Origin: Auricularia sp. M13
Lineage: Eukaryota > Basidiomycota > Agaricomycetes > Auriculariales > Auriculariaceae
Reading direction: 5' to 3'
Assembly (NCBI GenBank): GCA_037042915.1
Contig: CM073195.1
Span: 1,302,001-1,366,000 of the forward strand
Length of the DNA: 64,000 nt
Each line of letters starts with the position of its first letter. The first letter of the stretch is position 1. Shown piece after piece: positions 14,924 to 36,103 of this stretch. The notes beneath the pieces are model-generated. The model saw only the letters and a program-made list of their open reading frames with translations, did not search any database and had not been told where the DNA came from. A program made the position numbers and the translations under genes.

Positions 14924-17787
14924 TGAGGAGTTGGGAGTCGGAGGGCAAGGAGCGCTAGGCAACGTTTGACCTGACGAGTCAACCCCGCTGCCGGCTTTGC
15001 AGCGGAACTAGTCCGCGCCTCGTAAAGGCCGCCAAAAGGCCGCACAGGCTCTTATCTCCAGACAACTGACCCCCGCCTGCCCTCCGTCCTGCTTCCCTAC
15101 CCTCCGTCAGCCTCTGGTCAGACGAACCCTCAATGGCCGCGCGCGTCGGTCTGCGCCAGCGACTCTTCGACAAGACCTCGCCGCTGCCGCCTCAGGTCTC
15201 TCTGCGGTGAGCGCTCGAGCACCGCCAGGAATATAGGATATTTCCCGGATTCCAGGGCTGACGCTGCTTCTTGCACAGACATAGTGCGCCAGTTCCCCAC
15301 AGAATTGCGTGCGAGCTGCTGACGCGGTCGAGCAGTCAGCGCCATCTCCATTTGTGCGTGGCTTTCGACTTGGTCCCGCGAAGGATTTGCCCGGCTGAAC
15401 CGTGCACCCGCGCTGCGCAGGCTCTGTCGTGGGAACAGGGGTCTATATTTGTGCGCCTGCTCCTGCTCTGCGCTCCGCGGTCCCTGACTGACCCCTTGCG
15501 TGCAGCGTCGCTGTCGACCTCGCTGAGGGTGAGCAGGCATGATTTGCGTGACTTGCTTCGCGCGTGACCAGGCACCAGGATGCCGGCCCAGCAGGAGTAC
15601 TCATTGTGCGCCTATCCCCTACTACAACCGCGTCTTCTGCTTCTCGCAGTTCTCATACCATACCCAACGCAGGCCTACGCGCTGACCTCCAGCATTGTGT
15701 ACTGCACGGCGGTGTCCAACGGGGAAATGATGGTATGGTCAAGATTTGCCTGGCAGGGGATCGCCGTTGTACAACTGACTTTGCATTGCACGCAGGCGCA
15801 TCTGCCAAACGTCGGTGGTCCGGTCGGTATTCTTCCCTTCTGTCCAGCGCTCCGACATCTGCTTCACGTCTGCTCACGCAAGTCTCTGTCCGTTTCAGGT
15901 TGGCCTGGCGGATGTTTTCGTCGATCCTGCTTTGGTTCGTGGCGTTCCCAGGCGCGCGCAGCAGAATAAACTCATTGCTTATCGCGCGCGCAGGGGTTTG
16001 CAATGGGTGCGTATCGAGACCTCCCCCCATGGCGCCCGATGAATTTGTGACTGAGGCATGATCAGGCTGGAATGCGTGGTATCACTGGTACGGACCGATC
16101 CTCTCGCCTCTGTCTGGGCGGGATCGAGGCTGATCCTGGAACCAGGTCAATCATAGTACCAACACAGCTGGCTGCAGCAGGTCGTCTGGCGAAAGCATAC
16201 ATCTCTTCCAGCCCCACTCCATTAGCAAAGTATGAGGCCAAACTCTGCGATTCATACTGCTCACTCACCGCACCTCCTCTCGCAGTTCCGCCTATTATGC
16301 GTCTATCGCATTCTTCGTAAGCTCTCACTTCCCTCCTCCCGTCGGATTGCGGCAGAGCTGATCATGAAAAACTCCAGGTCGTGCTGGCTGTGGGCCTCAA
16401 CTTCATTGGTGCCCGGCGCTTCGGCCAGGTGCACGTCGCATTCGCGCTGCTCAAGGTGTTCACCCTTGTCGTCCTCGGTCAGTACCTAATGACCATTTCC
16501 ACGCCACGCCTCCCTCTGCCACCATCACTGTCGAGTCTAATAAACGCTGACCTTGACGTTGGCGCGCCGCGCAGTCTTCGTGGCGCTGATCATAGACTGG
16601 ACCCCGGTCCCGCGGTGCAACGCGTTCCCCGGGTCGACAGGCTGCGCAGCGGTGTCCGCCCCCAGCACCCTCCTGCCCGCGTGCGCCCGGCAGTTCGATA
16701 GCCCGCCGCCGGACATGGTCGTCATCGGATCGTCGTACTGGCGCTGCCCGGGCCCGTTCGTCCAGCCATTTGGGACGCATGGCATTAAGGGCAGCATCGC
16801 GGGAGTTTTCACCGTGCTCGTGCAGGTGCGGGAAACCTGTTCGTGATGGGATTTGGAACTTACTTCCTTGTCCGTGACGTGCAGGCCTGTTTTTCGTTCT
16901 TTGGGACGGAGATTGCGGGTGTGCCGGGACGCGAGGTGAGTGCTCAAGCATGTGTGCGTTTACTTTGGTTGTGGTGTACTGATGGAGGCGCCGATGTTCA
17001 ACAGATTCAGAACCCCACGACCAACATTCAGCGGGCGATTCGAAGAGTCTGGCTACGCATGTATGTTGGGTCTCCATCTGCGTCTGAGTCCATCTTCTCA
17101 TTCGTTCACAGCACCGTGTTGTACATTATGGCCGTTCTAGCTGCAGGGCTCGTCGTGCCATCAAACCACCCGAATTTGTCAACCACACCTCCAGGTTCAC
17201 CATGGATTATTGCCCTGCTCATTGCATCCGCGAGCTCCTTGGTACGTTCGAGTTTCGTCTAAGCTATCTTCTGTTTGTTCATGTTGGTGTGATAGCCACG
17301 GTATCTCCTCTCTGGGCTATTCATGGTCTCGGCGTTCTCAGCCGCGAGCGCAGATATCTACGTTTCGAGCCGCTATCTGTTCTACCTAGCACGGCGCGGT
17401 CACGCTCCCTGGGTCTTTGGATCGGTGTACAAGGGAAAGCCGAAAGCGTCGTTACCGGGCTACCATGGGCCCGATGAGCGTCGCCCCAGTGGCGCGATGA
17501 GCGAGCGCACACCCGTGGGGTCGCCCTCACTGCTCACCCGCAGCTTATCCAACATCGGGAAAGAGCCTGGGTCACCCCCTGAGATGCAGTCCCCGACGAG
17601 CCCGCCATCGACGCTGCCCCTTCTGCACTACACGCACACGCCCTCGCACTCGCGCGATAAAAGCGCCGACTTCCTCTCACCACCCTCGCCCGCGTCGCCG
17701 GCCTCGCTGACCAGCACGATTGGGCTGTTGGGGCACACGCGGCACGGGAGTCAGCTCTCGGGATCGTTCGCGCTGCCTGTGACGCCG

Positions 17788-17806
17788 CCGCCATCAGGAA
17801 AACCCC
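17788..17806 (+). repeat. Left terminal inverted repeat of Plavaka element
   Basis: CCGCCATCAGGAAAACCCC. It pairs with 25567-25585 at 17 of 19 positions. The first three bases (CCG) may be host sequence, since the related element at 34974 shares only (G)CCATC onward. Confidence 0.75.
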
Positions 17807-17844
17807 GCCACTCGGGAGCGGCCGACTTGCACCGAGTTGGCGGG

Positions 17845-17859
17845 GAGCGCTCAGGAGCA
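17845..17859 (+). repeat. Subterminal inverted motif, left
   Basis: GAGCGCTCAGGAGCA, a perfect inverted match to 25425-25439. It lies in a cluster of GGAGCG-like motifs that could be transposase binding sites (inference). Confidence 0.6.
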
Positions 17860-17972
17860 ACCGGAGCGGAGAGCGATCCCGGATCTGCTCCTGATCGCTC
17901 CCCACGTTGCTCGTTGCTGGCTGACGCTCCCGCGTCGGTTCTGCCTGTACACACGTATGTAGCCGCATCACC

Positions 17973-20900
17973 CTAGTATATCAATCGATATGCTGGTTTA
18001 TCTACATAATTATTCAACCAGAATTCCTTCCACCGCTCGTATAGGTTGTAAACGTTCAGATGCAACGGGATGCTTGGGTTGTGGCCACTCAGCTTCGCGA
18101 CAAGATGCGCGCTCCGTCTAATGTCAACCGCTTCAACCACACCGGCCTGCCGAACGTCTGCCTGTGCACCGGTCTTGAAGCTGCGCCGAATATTGTACAT
18201 GCCGGTAATGTCGTCTGCTTGCCCGAGCTTTGAAAACCACTCAACATACGCTAGTTTCCCGGGTGCAGGAAGCCGCAGGCGCTTGAAAATGGCAGTGACC
18301 TCGTCTGGAAGCGAGAACAACACGCGTAATTGGCCAATTCGGATACCTAGATGGCAGGTGAGCTCAGACAGGCATCTTGACGCGCAGCATAGCTCACCTT
18401 CCATGCCGCCTTCACCAGCAACGCCATCGCGATTTGTCTCCACCATGACGGGGTCGAAACGAGCCGGCGCTGTGCGTGCTTTCGTCTTGTGAGCAGGAGC
18501 GGCATGAGCGACGTCGTGCGTGGCAGGTGCGTGCAGCGTTTGGGTATCCGGCGTCCAGAATTTGACTTGATGCCAGACATTAAAGCCGACGCAGTCTGGT
18601 GAGGGAATGTCGTATCTTGGGACAGGTACGCCTGGGTTCTTCTTCCTCCACTCCTCGCGAACGTGCGCCTTGACAAAGTCGACCAGTTGTTCGCCGAAGA
18701 GTGCCGCACCATGTTCCTTCTTAATGTAATCCAGGCTGCGTGCCTTCGCATTCGGATGACGCGCAAAGCCTACGGCAGGGCGCACACGATTGGACGGCGG
18801 GCGCTTCAATGCAACGTGAGTCTTGCCCTCGAGATCATCCAAGTACGTCGCAAATCGGAATAGCTTTTCACGACGTTCGAGCCAGGTGCACATGAACGGT
18901 TTGATGTCGTCTTCGCGGTGGTTGGAGGCATTGTATGCCTCTTTCGCATAGTCGATGTGCAGGCGCTCCGTTTGCTCAGTGCTGTAGCCGCCTGTCGTGC
19001 CAAATAGACGAATCGACGGCGCGTAGTGTAGAAGCCCGTGGAGCTTGGGCAATTCGAGCGCTGCATCAGTGTCAGTCACGCATGGACCCATGGCATCGGT
19101 ACGAACATGTTGCAGCCCCAGTCGTCAAAAAGACGTCCTGATACTTGTTGAACTCGCGCAGGCATTCATCGAGCATCGCTAGGGTATCTTCGGAGTGGCA
19201 GGAATATTGCGCGATGTACGTAAAGTCAAGCAGAGCGCGCGCGGCACGAACAGCGTCCTTTTGCGGGATGCCCGCCATGCAAGCAAGCAGCTGCTTAGCA
19301 ATAGCTTTGTGCTCTTCACCAGAGACTCGCGATAGATGACTGATGCCGTCCTTGAAATGACGCAGGCCATGCGCAAGTCCTGCGCGCTTCATGCGGGCGT
19401 CGAGTTCGTCCTCGCCGACAATGGAAGTCGCCCAGTGAGTGAGGTGTTTGACCATGCCCTGGTACAGCTGATGAAGTACGTCGGGCGTTATAGAACGGTA
19501 TATGTCGGCGTGCGGCCAGTCCTTCCAGAACGGTTCTGGAATGTAATTGAGCCCATGCACCTTGAGCGCCTCGTCAATCGCAGAAAGAGAAGCGTCAGGC
19601 TGCGCGGCCTCGGCTATTGTCGCGAGCGTATCCTCCGGGGTGCGAGCGTCGCCGAGCTCGCCGCTGGCAAACTCGTCCTTGTCCGTCTTGCACTTCGGGC
19701 AGCGAGTGCTTCGGACACTGGCCGCAAGACACTGCTCTGGATAGTCACCGGCGTATACGGCGAGCAGTGGGTAGCATTTCCGGACCGCCCCATCGCTGCT
19801 CTTGAGGTTGACACCCTCTGCAGCGGCAATACGGAGAGGCTCGAGGATGGTCCGGACTGCGGCGTGGAATAAGCGTGCACGGGCGTTGCGCGCTGCGAGC
19901 TCAGTCAAGCCAGCAACGTCTATTGTGGACGTTGGTAGATATCCTATCAGAATCTGGGCTCGGCGAGAGGGCTGTCGGCGAATATGGTCGGCAATGTTGC
20001 CCACGGACATGTAGATAGGGTAAGCCGTCGCCTTTCCCGTAAACTGCGTGAGCTCTGTCTTGTCCGAGCTGATGATAATGGGTACGACGGTTGAGCCTCC
20101 TGGCAGCTTTCCCTAACGTTTGTGAGCGTCATACTGCCCATGATTAAACTACTGTACGTACCTGCATCTCAAACCAGAAATCCCCCGTCTTCATATCCGT
20201 ATAGAGGCGGATTTTGCGAGCTGCATCCGCATAGTGTTTCTCGGGTGCATATGACATGTAGTTCTTGAATGCGGGATCAGCCCACAGTGCCCTGAGGCAG
20301 TCCAGCGCGTCGCGGAAGAAGACTTCATGCTTGGACTCAGATACACCGTCCTGACCACCGACGGTAATCATAGTGCATTTCCAAGCCCCATAGCCCGGAA
20401 GTTCGTCGACCTTTTGGTTCAGCTGCCGGGCATTCTTCAGGTCGGGTATGGTTGCAGCGTGCTGACATCAAATGAGAAAGGAAACACTTTGTGCTGTAGG
20501 AGAACGCACGACGTTTAACTTGCAGTATCTGTCAATAGCATGATCAGGTAGCCCTTCGTTCTTCGCCCACTGGACAAATTCCCACTCGTCTCGGGTCGAA
20601 AATGGTGCATATTTATTATCAGAGTCACCTTTGAGGTGAGAGAACTGCTGCTGAAGCGGCGGGCGACCTGTGCGATGGATGCGGCCCGCCTGAGCCTCCT
20701 GGGGATATTGATCGATATATGTGTCCTCGTCGTCCTCATCCACATCGTCCTCCACCTGTGCGCGACGCGTCCTAGGACCAGATGTAGCACCGGTGTCCGC
20801 TGTTGCATCATCTTCGGCAGACGCTGTCTCGTCGTCGAGATCCATGGGTACGTCCTGCGGCTCTACTTCGACGGTCATGACACGAACGGCATGGTGCCTT

Positions 20901-21115
20901 GCTCGAAGTCGGGTCCGAAAGTCTGCAAGCTCCTTGCGCTTATCGAGGTAGGCGAGGATGGGATCCTTTTTCTTCGCAGCACGCTTGGCTTTGGCCGCGC
21001 ATGTTGCCGCTAGAGCCCGATGACGCTTTAGATCCTGTTCCCGCTGGAATACACGTTTACAGAAGCATTGATGTGGGCGTGGCTGCTCTGCTGAAGGAGG
21101 GTTCCGACGCGCCAT
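17973..21115 (-). CDS. Plavaka-family transposase (KDZ superfamily)
   Basis: Five exons join without a break: 21115-20513, 20461-20162, 20112-19107, 19060-18398, 18346-17973, giving about 981 residues. The N-terminus has a Cys/His finger (CFCKRVFQREQDLKRHRALA). Family landmarks follow in order: FFRDALDCLRALWADPAFKN, YAPEKHYADAARKIRLY, IIISSDKTELTQFTGKAT (candidate first catalytic Asp about 318), RRQPSRRAQILIGYLPTS, LLAVYAGDYPEQC (Asp about 424), CPKC, ITPDVLHQLYQGMVKHL, GISHLSRVSGEEHKAIAK, LPKLHGLLHYAPSIRLFGTT, ERLHIDYAKEAYNASNH, LAYVEWFSKLG, RRSAHLVAKLSG. All are typical of Plavaka. No stop or frameshift was found, so the gene is probably functional. Its stop overlaps the stop of the truncated permease frame (17974-17976). 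Confidence 0.92.
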
Positions 21116-21239
21116 GTACTGAGAGTAGTGGTAGTAGAAAACGACAGTAAGTACTCGGACTTGGAAAGCAAAATCGCGTGATTGCATGGCCTTAGGGATT
21201 TCCGGGAACTAGCGCGCCTAGCTTGTCCTCCTGCCCCAC

Positions 21240-23173
21240 ATGTCCAGGGCTAAGTCGACTTCTTCTAACAGTAATCGGTCAAAGAAGACCAAGGACAATG
21301 ACCCGGTCGATGACATGTCGGTCGAGGAAGCGCAGGAAGCAATGAAACGTTTGAAAAGCAAGATAGATAAGGCCAAAAAAACCGGTACGTATTCACGGTC
21401 GACCTGGTAACAACAGGAACTCATTCACCACCAGGAAAGCTGAACAAGAAAGCTGCGGGTCAGCGTGCGGAGGCCGAGGCAGAACGCCAGTATCAGGAGC
21501 AGCAGAAGCAGACCACATCTTCGCCAGCGCCGACGACGCCGAAGAACCGCGCAGACCAACAGAAAAAGAATCATCCTCGACAGCCGCAAGCAGCCAAGAC
21601 CTCTTCTGGGCGTTCCCGCGAAGACGATGCATATGCCATCCGTTTTGACGAAGCAGACGACGACTTGGTGGAAGAAAGTGAGCAGACAGGTTTTTTCGTC
21701 AGCGCAAAGCATTTATCAACAATGACAGCACGCAGGCAGATGTACGAGGGCGAGCCAGACTCAAGCCCCGTCGTATCCGAGCGCCAAAAGCGGAAGAACG
21801 ATGCTCGAAGCGATGCTGGAGATGACACCGGCGACGAGCGTTCCGCTGCCGCTGGGAATGCCGCAGTCCCGACCAAAAAGCTCAGGGGGGCCGGGGCAGC
21901 CACAGTAAGCTGAAAGAACATCCCTGTATTGACAGGAGCTCACGGTTCCAAGGTTCGCGTTGGCGCGGCTTCGCAGCCGCTTCGAAAGACGCTGCCCGGG
22001 CGCAAGGGTGCACCGAAGGTACCAAAGAAGGTCACGAAGATCCATGACACTTCAAGCGAAGAGAGCAGCGACGAAGACCGGCATATAGGCGAGCACACGC
22101 CGTACAATCGTGTCCTCAATCCGGGCGACAAAAATAAACCGAAACTGGAGGACTTGAGCCCGACGTCGGTAAAGATTGCTAAAAGTATCAGAACAGAGTA
22201 CGGGATGCTCATCTGCACGCTCAATGCATTTCCCGACGACGAGGCTGGAAACGAGATGGTCGACGGTCTTTTTCTCGAGGAGACAAACGACGCAGTCGAA
22301 GGTAGCAAACTGGCACGCCGGACGGAGCGATATGCTGCAGATGACGAGTATCAGACCGATATTCACAACTTGGTAAGTTGTATTCTCGACGTGCGCACCC
22401 TTGGTAACCATTAGCTGTGCCAGGGCAAGAACGTCGGCGCTGGATTCCGTGGCCGAGTTGCCGCAACCGCGCAGCCTCTTGTCGACGACAAATATGACTT
22501 TGAAAAGGACGACATGACAGTGGCGAAGCGCAAGGAGCGGGCGGTGACTCTGGTAAAGCAGGGCGCGTTTGCCCATCGTGATTGGAAGAACGTGAGTGAC
22601 GGCACATGTCAGTCGCAACTTTTACACTCAGCTGCTCCTCAGCGCAAGGGATATCTACAAAATCCCCTTATATGGCGGCTCCTAGCAAAGCATTTCCTTG
22701 CAAGGCGGGGGACCAAAGGCAAGCCCTTGGTCGAACCCGGTCCGCACATGTCGATGTTCAAGGAGATGCCCAACGAACTTATTGCATTCTTGTTGACCAC
22801 AGTGCGTCTGGAAATTTTCAATCATAAGCCTCTCTGATGTTCCAATGCTCAGATTCACTGTGCAATCGATGGTTGGAGCGATGGAACGTTCAAGAAGGCC
22901 GAGTTTTCCCAGACGGAATACGAGACCAAGTACAAGGCGCACCTTTCAACGATCAAAACCGTGGCCGATGGAAACGCCGCTTACATGACTAAAGTGCGAG
23001 AACTCATCTGGGATGAGGCATGGTATGTTGGAACTATTTCTACGATTCTTCCACGGTGCTGACGAGCAAATAGCAAGCTTGCCAACATCAGTCCGTCCAT
23101 TACAGTGCAAGAGGATGTCCAAGGCGAAATATACCTCACGGCCGAAGAGTTAGAAGGCCTGGGGGACGAGTGA
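21240..23173 (+). CDS. DUF6532-domain protein carried by Plavaka element
   Basis: Eight or so exons join in frame: 21240-21384, 21435-21904 (perhaps with an in-frame 51 nt intron at about 21676-21726), 21977-22372, 22424-22591, 22643-22801, 22853-23022, 23074-23173. The N-terminal half is charged and low-complexity (MSRAKSTSSNSNRSKKTKDN, long Gln/Lys/Glu stretches) and looks nuclear or DNA-associated. The C-terminal half matches DUF6532 in order: VGAGFRGRVAATAQPLV, YDFEK, an ALAxx-like block ending FAHRDWK, GYLQNPLIWRLLAKHF, MPNELIAFLLTTIHCAIDGW, then FSQTEYETKYKAHLSTIK. Function is unknown for the family. It starts 125 bp from the transposase ATG on the opposite strand, so the two share a promoter region inside the element. 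Confidence 0.85.
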
Positions 23174-25424
23174 GGAACGTCCGGGCCAGTGGGCAACGCA
23201 GGCAGTTCGAAAACGCGCTGATTAAGTCCGCGTCAGGGAAAGCTCGTAGCAGCACTGCTATACCGTGTCAAATCGTTAAAACAAAATCCGTAGCTTATTT
23301 ATGCATTGCGAAGTTGTGTCATTTTTTGCGATGGCTTGGAGCTGAACGAGCGAACGGATGGTCGAGTCGGACTTCAAAACACTGCTTGCCTTAAGCTTCC
23401 ACCCCCACCGCACGTCGCACCGCTCCATGGTGCTCATTGTCCGCTGCTGCACCGTGTGCGGAACAAGATTAAACTGCAAGACGCGCGTACGTGCAGCTGC
23501 AGTAGTTTGACCAATCTAACCAGAAGTTTTCGTTTTCAAGCCCTCATAACATTATTCCATCGTCTTGTACGCAACACCTCTTGTTTTGCAGTGGAATATC
23601 TCGCTGACACAACCTGAATGGTTTACCTTCGGGCTTGTACAATCCGTGAGTGAACCAACTTAACGACAGCACCACGCGGCTAACAACCAGCAGTATTGCA
23701 GCGTCAACCTCCTTTCCGAACATTTTTTGGCAGCGTGCTCGATAGTTGTATCCACCAAGGACCTGTCGCTCTGTAAGCCTGCCATTTTGCAGCATGTCCC
23801 CGTGTATCCCGCCTGTGCCCATCCCCTCCATCGTCATGCCCTCGAGTTGAGCGGCGCCGTTGTATGCATACTTGCATGACTCGGCAGCCGCTCTCGTCCA
23901 AAATCCCCAGCCACGAGATGTTGCACACATGCTCTGCGGCTTGCCCCACCGCGCAATCCCCTCGCGTCTGCGACGCCGACTCGCGTTGGGGCGTTGCATC
24001 GTACTCAATGCCCCGCAGCGCTGCCTCTCCACCCATCTATTCTGAGTGCCGGCAAGCTCCCCAGCGTCCAGTTTCTACGAGCAGCAAGGCCAGCAGTCCG
24101 TTCCGACGCCGATGATTTCCTGGACAACGAGGTCTGGGCCGAGCTCGCAGCAGCGCTGGACTCGACGCTTCGCGCGCAGCCACGGACTCCAAGCTCGCGG
24201 TCGCCACTCCCAACGCTCACTCCGGCGTGCGGTTGGCGACGTCCAGCAGGTGCGTGCTCATGCTGTTCATTCCAAGTCATGCTAATATTCATTTGTGTCG
24301 CGGTCACAGGCAGAGCAGGAGTAACACGGCGCTGCGGCCTTCTATTCAGCTTGGCTATGGACGACTATAAGAGCGCGCTCAGCGCTGCGCGTCATCCGCT
24401 CGTGCTGCCGAGCCGCACTTGCCGCCCGCCACCCGTTCCCTTCCATGCCCGCCAACGACACTGCGCGCAGTGAGCAATACGGCCGGCGCACAGCATCAAT
24501 GGCTGTACGTACCATCATAGTCCGATTGTCAACTGCTGGCGCTGAATGCCTTGCGCCGCATGTAGGCCAGGCCACCTGCTGTCGAGAACGTGCGTCCGAC
24601 GTCACGCCCGAAAGAGTCAGCCCTGTCTGCGTCGGTGTCAGCAACCGCATGCAGGCTGCGCGCGCGATCGCAGGCGCGCGTTCTGGCGGTGAGTTCTGGA
24701 GCGGATTGACAACATATCAATACAGTTGCTAACGGCTGCGCAGATTGTCAATGTACCCTCACCATCCAGCGCCCACGACGGCTCCAGCGTCTGCGAACGA
24801 TCCAGCGCGCGCCCGGCAATACCTACAAGGCGTATCAGCAGCAGTCCACGCGGCGGGCTCGCAAGAGACGTCGCGGTATGGCTTTGCCGCATCCGATCCC
24901 CAACCTGCAAATCGGTCCGCAGCTGTCAGGCCACTCGCAGGATGCATTCAAAGCTTCAATGTCGACCGGTACGCATTGATTTATTTGTTCCTTGACCGCT
25001 CATACACTGACCGCCCGCCGGCAGCACCGATCCAACTTGAGTGCGGCAACCTCACGCGGCCGGCGGCGCAAGGTGCCCGTCTCCGCCATGCGGGTCGCTC
25101 CGCTGTACCCAACGCTGAACGTGCATGGGCGCTGCCAGTGCCGCAGACGTGGGTGCGCCGCTCGGCGCTGGAACTCAAACGACGGTGCCACAGCGCACTG
25201 GGGCTGCATCTGTGCTCGACAAGCCGGCTCATTGTACACGATGCTGCCGCCCGGTGCAGCTCTTGAATAGCTACTAGTACTAGTTCTACATACTTGAATA
25301 CAGTGCCGCTACCTACCCAATTGAACCGCCATCTCCGTTCGGAAAGGATGGGCAAGCAAGCATACCTGTCAATTTGAGAGAACCGTTTCAGCAAGTTCCA
25401 CGGTGTTTTCTATCTCTCCCAGAC
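23174..25424. other. Unassigned part of Plavaka element
   Basis: About 2.25 kb between the DUF6532 stop and the right subterminal repeats. Plus-strand frames stay open in places (24745-25266; also around 24020-24250, with a fragment such as DDFLDNEVWAELAAALDSTL), and minus strand 23544-24032 is open for 162 codons. I cannot join these into a gene with a recognisable domain. No 2OG-Fe dioxygenase (TET/JBP) motif, which is known as cargo of some KDZ elements, was seen. Confidence 0.5.
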
Positions 25425-25439
25425 TGCTCCTGAGCGCTC
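25425..25439 (-). repeat. Subterminal inverted motif, right
   Basis: TGCTCCTGAGCGCTC, the reverse complement of 17845-17859. Confidence 0.6.
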
Positions 25440-25566
25440 TCCGTTCGTTCCCAGAGCACCCCGGAACGGTCAGCGGATTGCCTGATGCTCTTGATCACGG
25501 AAACCGGGGAGGGTCGCTCCCGCGCTCCGACCGATCCTGAACACCGGGAACGCTCCGGACCTACCC

Positions 25567-25585
25567 GGGTTTTTCCCGATGGCGG
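25567..25585 (-). repeat. Right terminal inverted repeat of Plavaka element
   Basis: GGGTTTTTCCCGATGGCGG, pairing with 17788-17806. Host permease coding sequence resumes at about 25583 (frame R-K-T-H-P-H-S-S-S). Confidence 0.75.
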
Positions 25586-26782
25586 AAGACGCATCCGCAT
25601 TCAAGCTCGCGCGCGTACTCGTTCCCACAGTCACATGCGCACTCCAACTCGCTCTCGGCCGCGCTGACCGTCGACACGCTCCGCCCGACCTCTGCCAGTG
25701 GCTCGCGGCCCAACACCGGACAATCGGCGCAGTCCGCGCTGTCGGGGGTGTCGTCTGCAACAGCGCACAGCGCTGGCCGCCCGTCGGACATGCCGCATTT
25801 TCCCTCCGCACCGCCGGCGCTGGGAGCGGGGTCGCCGCAGCGTCAGCCGCGGCTCAAGCGCTCAAGGGCAATTACGCCCGAGCCGCCCCCGGATATCTTC
25901 GTCCCCTGGGTCGGCGTGCTCGCTGCCGGGCTTGTGGGCTTGCTCGTGTTCCTGGCGCCCTCAGCGCAGAACGAGAAGAAGGTTGATGCGGTACGTGCAA
26001 TGCATCTTTTCTCCGAGTGTTTGCGCGGTGCTGACACCCAGTGGCAAATTGCAGACATTCAAGTTCTTCACTCAAATGACCAACTGCGCGTCGCTCATCG
26101 CGTGGGTCGGCATCCTCGTCACGTATCTTAGGTATGAATTTCTCAAATTTCATGCGACCGTTTTTGGCGGGATGTTGACGATTTGTGATCAGGTATTATC
26201 AGGGAACGAAACTTGCGGAGGAGAAGGACGAGAAATTCCGTATAACACATGACGAGAGCTTGTACAAGAATAGGCCGTGGGGTCAGCCATGGGTATGTTG
26301 ATGACGCCAGATCTCTGCACCCCATTGCTTACCCGCTGTAGCTTGCGCGGTACGCGTTGGTCTGGTGCATCGCGATATTGCTGGGCCAGGGATGGACGAG
26401 CTTCACCAACCCGGGCGTCAACCGCATCGGTAAGTTTGCAAGGCCTTGGTGCATACTCCAGCGGTCTGACGGCATGGGATAAAATGAAGCCGAGTTGGAC
26501 GGCGACGGCTCCGTGAAGGATAACGATTTCGACATGTCGTTTATCGTCAACTATCTCCCGATCGTGCGCTTCCCATCTCCAGCGTCAAAGCTAACAGGGC
26601 CTAACCCTTCCATGCAGGCAATGTTTCTCTTGCTTGCTTTCGGGTACAAACTTGTGTACCAGACGAACTTCGTCCGGTTGGAGGACATGAAGTTTGACCG
26701 CGGCAAGGTCCTCACTGGTCCCGAGCAGCGCGAGTCCCACTCCGACAATATCTGGGTGAGACTCTACAGATTCCTGCTCTGA

Positions 26783-27525
26783 GAGCGACGATTCGCATAT
26801 TTCCATGGCGTACATTATGACAGATAAGTAGCGGTAGTAACAAGTAGTAGTAGAACAGTGTACAGTACCTCTGCTTTTGTAGACTTGAGGATGTATTGAG
26901 TAATGCATATCATATTGCCCTCGTATACTATTTCCGACATAGTCAGCTGTGGCCCAGAAGTACGTCTTTGCGCATGCTTCTCCGAGATACCACGGGGTGT
27001 CCATGCTACCAGTAGCGCCCTGCTCAGGTGGCCGACTGACCCGCAAGGGCTTCCCAGTTGCTGCCCATTCGTGATAGTCAGGGTCTCTGGCAATCTGTGA
27101 AGGCCTTTTCGCATCCGATTCGTGATGTAGCGTGCAGTGCGATGAGTATGTAGCTAGGTTGACTCCTGTGACTCAAGCTCTTGAGATTATGAACCAACGC
27201 CACAGTATGGTCGCCGAGTCCGTTCCTTCCGCCACTCACGGAGATTTACGCCATTACAGTATCAGGCACATGTGAGCGTGCAATCTGGTGCAATCTGGTG
27301 CTTGCGTAGCGACCGGGACAACAGGTAGAAGCAAACAACGCCACCGGCTGCTGCGTGCGCGGGATCTGATTTGAAATTGCGAACGCGCCTGAAACCCTCA
27401 CCTGGCACCAACCGGGACACGCGACAAATTGGTTGTGTGCTGATTGAATGTGTATAGAACGTCGGGTTAGCAGCAACTCAGTTCTTCCACTCCCGTTTCT
27501 ACTCGCCTGGCGCGAGCACCTGTCG
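26783..27525. other. Intergenic, no gene seen
   Basis: About 740 bp between the permease stop and the next start, same strand. It should contain the permease 3' end and the promoter of the 27526 gene. Open stretches on the minus strand have no domain. Confidence 0.45.
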
Positions 27526-34973: not shown

Positions 34974-36103
34974 CCATCTGTAAAAACCCACCTATCTCCG
35001 GATCGCTCCGGAGGCTCCGGAACAGCCGGACCAGGCTGAGAAAGGTACCCCTTTCCGGAGCCTCCCGAGCTGCAGTTCAGAGCTCCGGAGCAGCCTGGAG
35101 CGCTCCTGGAAGCTCCTCCAGGTGCTGTTTTCTCACTTTACGGCTTATTTGGATGCTCTTCCTGATGCTTACTGCCTGCCAGGGCAGACAAAAACGAACA
35201 CAGATGAAAAGGAAAAACGTGGCATTGCAAAATAAATAGATACAGGATGCGATGACCCATTGTACGTCGAAGCAAGACACGCTCAGGGCCTGACACAAAG
35301 CGACAACGATCATGAATGGACTCACAACAACGTGAGGTCGTCGGCCACTGGCACGGTCCGCCGCTCCTCGTGCGTGCAGTGCGGCAGGTTGCTGCGCTGC
35401 GCACGTCGCATCACCTACCACCAACCGCCTGTCAGACAGGCAGAAAAGCACAGGTCTATGGACATACCAGTATCGGCGCCCGAAGCGGTCGGGTTGGGGG
35501 GAAAGTGTGAGCGGGAGGGCACTGTGACGAATGTCAGAACGGTGCGTGTGATCCATAATGCTTACTGCCTCGATAGTCTTGAGCGGCACCGTCGCGAAGA
35601 GTTGACCTGCAAACGACAAGTTAGTATGCAAATGAAAGCCCAGGTCGGTAGCTGCGAAAACAGAGCACGCCAGACCGCAAGACATGAACGAGCCCAGAGC
35701 CAGCACGACGAGAGAGACCACGAGCAGAGCTAAGCAGGCCTGAAGAGCAGCCCGAGATGACACAGAAAGCCCAATGCCAGAGCCGCATAGCCAGGAATGC
35801 GCCACGGACGGTGTCAAGCTAGGCGGGGCGGTTGGGGTGGTGGGGGAAAAGAGACAAGTCCGTTTGAAAGCCCGCTTGATGGGAATCAGCTCGTTGTCAA
35901 CCAGCATGTGGCCCATTCGATGGGAGCTGGGACGCGTTGATGGGAGCTGCTGGAGCTCGGATTGAACCGGAAACGCCAAGCATTTGGTCGTGGATTGCCT
36001 GGCCCGGTGCTCCCAACGCTTCGGCCGCTCAGATCAATCCGGAGCAGCCGGAGATGTCAGGAGCTTGATACCCAGCTCCGGAGCGGCGGGTTTTTACAGA
36101 TGG
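34974..36103. mobile_element. 1.1 kb element with Plavaka-like ends
   Basis: Perfect inverted ends: GCCATCTGTAAAAACCC at 34973-34989 and its reverse complement at 36088-36104. Compared with the big element (CCATC-AGGAAAACCCC / CCATC-GGGAAAAACCC), both share CCATC, two or three variable bases, then an A-run and CCC. Both are also bordered by dense CTCCGG/CCGGAG motifs (34995-35115 and 35940-36085). I read it as a short non-autonomous relative of the Plavaka element at 17791-25582. No transposase. No target duplication visible. Confidence 0.8.
35077..35979 (-). CDS. Possible membrane-protein ORF inside the 1.1 kb element
   Basis: Open for 300 codons on the minus strand across most of the element. 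It contains hydrophobic runs (ALLVVSLVVLALGSFMSCGL, VVVSPFMIVVALCQALSVSC, WVIASCIYLFCNATFFLFIC). Start unclear: ATG 35979 lies near the repeats, and an internal ATG (MGHMLVDNELIPIK) about 21 codons on is also possible. No family recognised. It may be a captured gene fragment or a fortuitous frame. Confidence 0.3.
   Translation of the reverse strand: MAFPVQSELQQLPSTRPSSHRMGHMLVDNELIPIKRAFKRTCLFSPTTPTAPPSLTPSVAHSWLCGSGIGLSVSSRAALQACLALLVVSLVVLALGSFMSCGLACSVFAATDLGFHLHTNLSFAGQLFATVPLKTIEAVSIMDHTHRSDIRHSALPLTLSPQPDRFGRRYWYVHRPVLFCLSDRRLVVGDATCAAQQPAALHARGAADRASGRRPHVVVSPFMIVVALCQALSVSCFDVQWVIASCIYLFCNATFFLFICVRFCLPWQAVSIRKSIQISRKVRKQHLEELPGALQAAPEL

Follow-up and report, generated by a model that had tools for sequence, protein, structure and literature searches.

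A structurally complete Plavaka transposon carrying a DUF6532 gene within an amino-acid permease gene of Auricularia sp. M13

In a 64,000-nucleotide stretch of the Auricularia sp. M13 genome (positions 1,302,001 to 1,366,000 of contig CM073195.1, assembly GCA_037042915.1; hereafter the window, to which all coordinates refer unless a contig is named), a transposon of 7,790 bp was identified at 17792-25581 (no strand assigned) on the basis of its ends, its target-site duplication (TSD) and its transposase. We interpret it, with a probability of about 0.9, as a structurally autonomous element of the Plavaka group (CACTA-like clade) that has inserted in an amino-acid permease gene, within its exon 18, and that carries, in addition to its transposase gene, a gene for a DUF6532 protein as its proposed helper. 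Plavaka transposons in genes are known, and the insertion as such is of an ordinary sort; what is newly added is an exactly defined TSD, a second gene and the finding that DUF6532 is paired with Plavaka transposases across the genome. As a clean, natural interruption of a transporter gene by an element of complete structure, the locus offers a test case for Plavaka mobility. Furthermore, Plavakas are little studied, and the genome-wide pairing provides DUF6532, a fungal domain of unknown function, with a concrete context; this link, more than the insertion itself, is the interesting part of the result.

The transposon, its ends and the interrupted permease gene

The transposase gene lies on the minus strand (17973-21115), and its model consists of five exons (21115-20513, 20461-20162, 20112-19107, 19060-18398 and 18346-17973) that encode 981 amino acids (aa) without an internal stop. 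The product covers positions 2-324 of the 325 positions of PF18759, the Plavaka transposase domain (E 6.2e-108), by whose presence autonomous elements are defined in PMC8290104. In PMC12730594, the region from the second D to the last E of Plavaka transposases is described as containing C(2)C and H(3-4)H. The window transposase displays, in order, the motifs SDKT, GDYPEQ, CPKC, PDVLHQL, LPKLHGLLHY and TEQTERLHID, in which D, D, C(2)C, H(3)H and E are all in place, the putative catalytic residues being our own assignment. This motif series was common to most relatives tried, with two loci (L054 and L056) matching three of the five patterns searched. A suspected frameshift near 19.1 kb was ruled out, as relatives break at the same spot, which thus represents an intron; the break was displayed by eight of the ten loci examined (seven distinct places), and the alignments of the other two stopped short of the spot. 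The original prediction of a five-exon transposase without defect was thereby borne out, as was that of an intact Plavaka inside a permease gene, given the full transposase domain, the exact ends and the rejoined permease frame described below.

The outermost letters of the element are CATCAGGAAAAC at the left and TTTTTCCCGATG at the right. The left end has the sequence CATCAGGAAAACCCC and the right end, when reversed, the sequence CATCGGGAAAAACCC, forming an imperfect inverted repeat of ~30 bp, of which the left copy (17792-17820, plus strand, ~29-31 bp) is followed by GGAGCG-rich subterminal DNA while the right copy occupies 25551-25581 (minus strand). Copies of GGAGCG cluster most densely in the element's first 500 bp (n = 6) and last 290 bp (n = 3). 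Directly outside these ends, the sequence contains a 2 bp target duplication, GC, at 17790-17791 and 25582-25583 (no strand assigned to either copy).

The genome (52.1 Mb in 14 contigs, with the window on contig C3) was searched for the end pattern CATCRGGAAAAM, which yielded 91 matches against five for the backward-read control. The gene style and the transposons of this genome suggest a basidiomycete. Of these ends, 27 pairs face each other at distances of up to 20 kb, compared to 0.8 pairs on average and 5 at most when the ends were placed at random 2,000 times, and 20 of the 27 span only 226-2,232 bp and resemble non-autonomous elements. A second end motif, CATCDGTAAAAM, was matched 37 times, as opposed to 15 times for its control, and from its matches eight pairs were assembled by eye, including a 1,128 bp element in the window. 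Flanks were read for 26 pairs, comprising 17 of the 27 pairs of the first motif, the eight pairs of the second and one pair from a looser match, and an exact 2 bp duplication was present in 22 of these, where ~1.6 would be expected at a chance of 1 in 16; a 3 bp TSD was ruled out, being seen in none of 20 pairs. Because 22 of the 26 tested pairs carry a 2 bp duplication at that boundary, the ends of the window element were set at CATC/GATG with a GC duplication, replacing the CCATC/GATGG ends that had first been claimed. The outer C and G of the latter belong to the duplication, although the joined sequence is identical whichever of the two cuts is used.

With the element and one GC omitted, the permease model comprises 23 exons (15133-26782) in a single 823 aa frame, with a coding sequence of 2,472 bp that is devoid of internal stops. 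The exons on both sides are open and in phase and rejoin cleanly in one frame across the GC, as had been predicted, while the start, previously placed at 15421, was moved to 15133 in the present model. The exons exist as 24 pieces, since the element cuts exon 18 at a position that corresponds to a Ser/Pro-rich loop, and the 22 introns are all GT-AG and measure 31 to 99 bp. The 5' part of the gene (15133-17791, plus strand) holds exons 1-17 and the left of exon 18 (17296-17791), and the 3' part (25584-26782, plus strand) holds the remainder of exon 18 and five exons. The joined protein matches PF00324 (E 3.5e-58) in two stretches, the better of which, in the left part, spans positions 4-327, and the right part alone covers positions 329-465 (model length 470); the two are therefore complementary parts of one permease. 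Splice sites were chosen by hand to follow permease homology, and openness alone is weak proof; independent proof of a single gene comes from the two halves occupying adjoining stretches of PF00324. The least sure portion of the model is formed by the first exons (tiny exons and a 31 bp intron). The protein thus resembles PF00324 amino-acid permeases in both halves of the domain, and its gene differs from them by the long Ser/Pro loop and by being split by a transposon. The nearest other permease protein matches, over parts only, are 39% (contig C2) and 43% (contig C3) identical. Neither a second DNA copy of the 3' part nor an empty allele was seen in the assembly, and the split permease is presumably null in the present nucleus. 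A literature search on transposons in permease genes yielded an unrelated genome survey.

The DUF6532 gene and its pairing with Plavaka transposases

The second gene of the element, which was overlooked in the original prediction, lies head to head with the transposase gene at a distance of 124 bp (21240-23173, plus strand). Its eight exons encode an intact protein of 526 aa that covers positions 6-193 of the 194 positions of PF20149 (DUF6532; E 3.6e-38). The shared upstream region of the two divergent gene models (21116-21239, 124 bp, no strand assigned) is a probable two-way promoter.

Six-frame searches of the genome gave at least 41 DUF6532 and at least 87 Plavaka matches, which were grouped into 25 and 49 loci, respectively. 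At 23 of the 25 DUF6532 loci a Plavaka transposase is located 0.6 to 11.3 kb away, head to head in all 23 cases; the share of the genome within 15 kb of a Plavaka locus is ~2.8%. Conversely, a DUF6532 partner is present at 23 of the 25 Plavaka loci scoring above 150 bits, and DUF6532 occurs within 15 kb of none of the 24 weak loci (below 82 bits), among them a fragment of the contig C5 copy described below. The strong and weak groups are perhaps different sublineages. Additionally, all five elements for which both ends were located (the window element, C6:3772802-3781679, C10:3464120-3473648, C3:2268406-2277213 and C11:124617-132381) hold both genes and an exact 2 bp TSD. In the case of the C11 element, a further forward motif match lies between the ends; the outer match was chosen, with which the TSD fits, while the inner one would exclude the transposase. 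Based on the 23 of 25 divergent DUF6532 loci and the five of five two-gene elements, which are related by descent in one genome and hence do not represent independent trials, DUF6532 therefore looks like a standing partner of the present transposon group.

It is reasonably likely that DUF6532 would be a dedicated second protein of CATC-ended Plavakas, with its gene carried inside the element and divergent from that of the transposase, and that transposition would require it or be protected by it; if true, this would parallel the accessory proteins of other cut-and-paste transposons. It is possible, albeit doubtful, that DUF6532 instead represents passenger cargo, captured once in an ancestor and inherited by the elements without any role in transposition. 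Such an origin is consistent with all links coming from one genome in which the families share ancestry, and with the variable gap between the DUF6532 and Plavaka domains (0.6 to 11.3 kb), but it sits uneasily with the retention of DUF6532, head to head, by 23 of the 25 strong Plavaka loci despite far-diverged copies (among 12 loci tried by tblastn, one clearly matched the window protein). In the reading that we prefer, the DDE transposase most likely bound the CATC ends and the GGAGCG-rich subterminal repeats as its putative sites, excised the element from a donor and joined it to a 2 bp staggered cut at GC, leaving GC at both sides. The DUF6532 protein, as a proposed standing partner encoded by the element, would assist transposition or help the element to evade silencing. 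The observed part of this scheme comprises the ends, the TSD, both genes and the association of DUF6532 with Plavaka in the present genome.

CACTA transposons carry two element genes and repeated subterminal motifs, and the window element is alike in both respects. EnSpm/CACTA elements have CAC ends and a 3 bp TSD, whereas the window element has CATC ends, a 2 bp TSD and divergent genes. In the accessible part of PMC12730594, EnSpm/CACTA is placed in the same wider transposase clade as Plavaka, and PlavakaB elements are described as having CATCA..TGATG termini with a 2- or 3-bp TSD. The PlavakaB elements of Agaricomycetes in that source have in common with the window element the transposase, C(2)C and H(3)H, CATC termini and a 2 bp TSD. 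Their ends read CATCA, as does exactly the left terminus of the window element, whereas its right terminus reads CATCG; in two related elements, both termini are CATCA. DUF6532, present in the window element, is not mentioned for PlavakaB in the accessible part of the same source. No TET/JBP gene was found in the Pfam scans, beyond which no search was aimed at TET/JBP.

A literature search found no link between DUF6532 and Plavaka, and we make no claim that such a link is unpublished; in the available portion of PMC8955403, both domains are named side by side in one sentence without a link being drawn. A sequence search of the PDB with the window DUF6532 protein gave no match up to E 1, and the AlphaFold model of a one-exon DUF6532 fragment from another locus, obtained with three sequences, had a mean predicted local distance difference test (pLDDT) score of 38.9.

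Copies, age and activity of the element

The genome was also searched with five DNA stretches of the element and its immediate borders (17787-18060, 18500-19500, 20100-23180, 23180-25400 and 25270-25590), a search for near-identical copies having been proposed with the original prediction. No such copy was found in the readable genome with these stretches. The closest copy, on contig C5, is 85% identical over 17792-19908 and is then interrupted; the match resumes in another piece, which shares 5 bp (19904-19908) with the first, and the break may represent a large insertion with a 5 bp duplication. The remainder of the C5 copy extends into unreadable sequence. Over 612 codons, the window and C5 transposases differ by no stop and no coding indel, with a synonymous divergence (dS) of 0.87, a non-synonymous divergence (dN) of 0.028 and a dN/dS of 0.032, while the introns are 68% identical (66 of 97 positions) and the terminal 181 bp are 89% identical (161 of 181). 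Both the protein and the element end were thus kept under strong constraint along the window and C5 lineages, as would be expected of a line of working transposons, and the constraint on the transposase fits a lately active lineage.

The open permease frame bounds the age of the insertion. If only stops are considered, the bound at 95% amounts to ~0.04 neutral substitutions per site, which is lowered to ~0.018 when splice letters are counted (computed with 23 introns instead of 22, an effect of ~0.0005) and to 0.008 under an assumed indel rate of 0.1 per substitution. The insertion may fairly be called recent, while the earlier wording of 'very recent' goes further than bounds of ~4%, or ~2% with splice letters, can establish. 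An older insertion, preserved by chance in an element that has not moved of late, would agree with the failure of the five query stretches to find a near-identical copy and with the looseness of the age bound from the host gene, but it is improbable in view of the perfect TSD, the two intact multi-exon genes, the open host gene and the dN/dS of 0.032. The predicted possible activity of the element is indirectly supported by its two intact genes, its perfect TSD, the low dN/dS and the many end pairs with TSDs across the genome, while the five query stretches yielded no near-identical copy in the readable genome.

This negative result is one of several points that weigh against the reading of the element and insertion favoured here. 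Four of the 26 end pairs read lack an exact TSD (C9:1117384, C12:626755, C1:5331998 and C4:3228474, the last of which spans 16.5 kb and may join two elements), and the right end of the window element has G in place of A at its fifth base. Two DUF6532 loci (C11:1368784 and C7:2594906), which are candidates for element remnants or host-kept copies, have no Plavaka nearby, and one strong Plavaka locus (C3:2457895) has no DUF6532, with another (C5:4296234) left unjudged. With regard to the host gene, the splice sites were placed by hand, and a six-frame genome search for PF00324, in which 24 of 39 candidates were scored, gave 26 matches that do not include this gene; such a search handles poorly a gene in many small exons, such as this permease.

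That the two permease parts are separate fragments or two neighbouring genes is highly improbable: the junction does fall in a low-complexity Ser/Pro loop outside the Pfam match, where homology offers no check, but the parts cover PF00324 4-327 and 329-465, the reading phase of the interrupted exon is maintained across the TSD and no second DNA copy of the 3' part was found. An old insertion that is spliced out of the transcript as a large intron, leaving a working permease, would likewise leave the permease exons open and in phase, but is scarcely credible since the element ends lack a GT-AG boundary and the element, at 7.8 kb and with genes on both strands, contrasts with permease introns of 31 to 99 bp.

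Interior of the element and related end pairs

The stretch at 24056-24870 (no strand assigned), in the right third of the element, looks non-coding and matches two places on contig C8 at 72% identity. The possibility of a third gene at 23.2-25.4 kb was considered and ruled out, as five frames tried in the region 23.5-25.3 kb gave no Pfam match and this region has many non-triplet gaps against its 72% identical relatives. The earlier description of the element as undamaged consequently holds for the transposase and DUF6532 genes, but not for the whole interior. The two places on C8 (L062 and L063) are ~9 kb apart, and L062 adjoins a weak, below-cutoff Sortilin-Vps10 match. An Rfam search of 15000-27500 returned no match at the gathering score.

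Three further end pairs, C3:2180806-2185095, C2:4789488-4795031 and C7:3728572-3735460, span 4.3, 5.5 and 6.9 kb, respectively, and have exact 2 bp TSDs; no Plavaka match is listed inside them, and they may hold other cargo. Within the window itself, the 1,128 bp element at 34975-36102 is a non-autonomous relative with CATCTGTAAAAA ends and a GC target duplication of its own.

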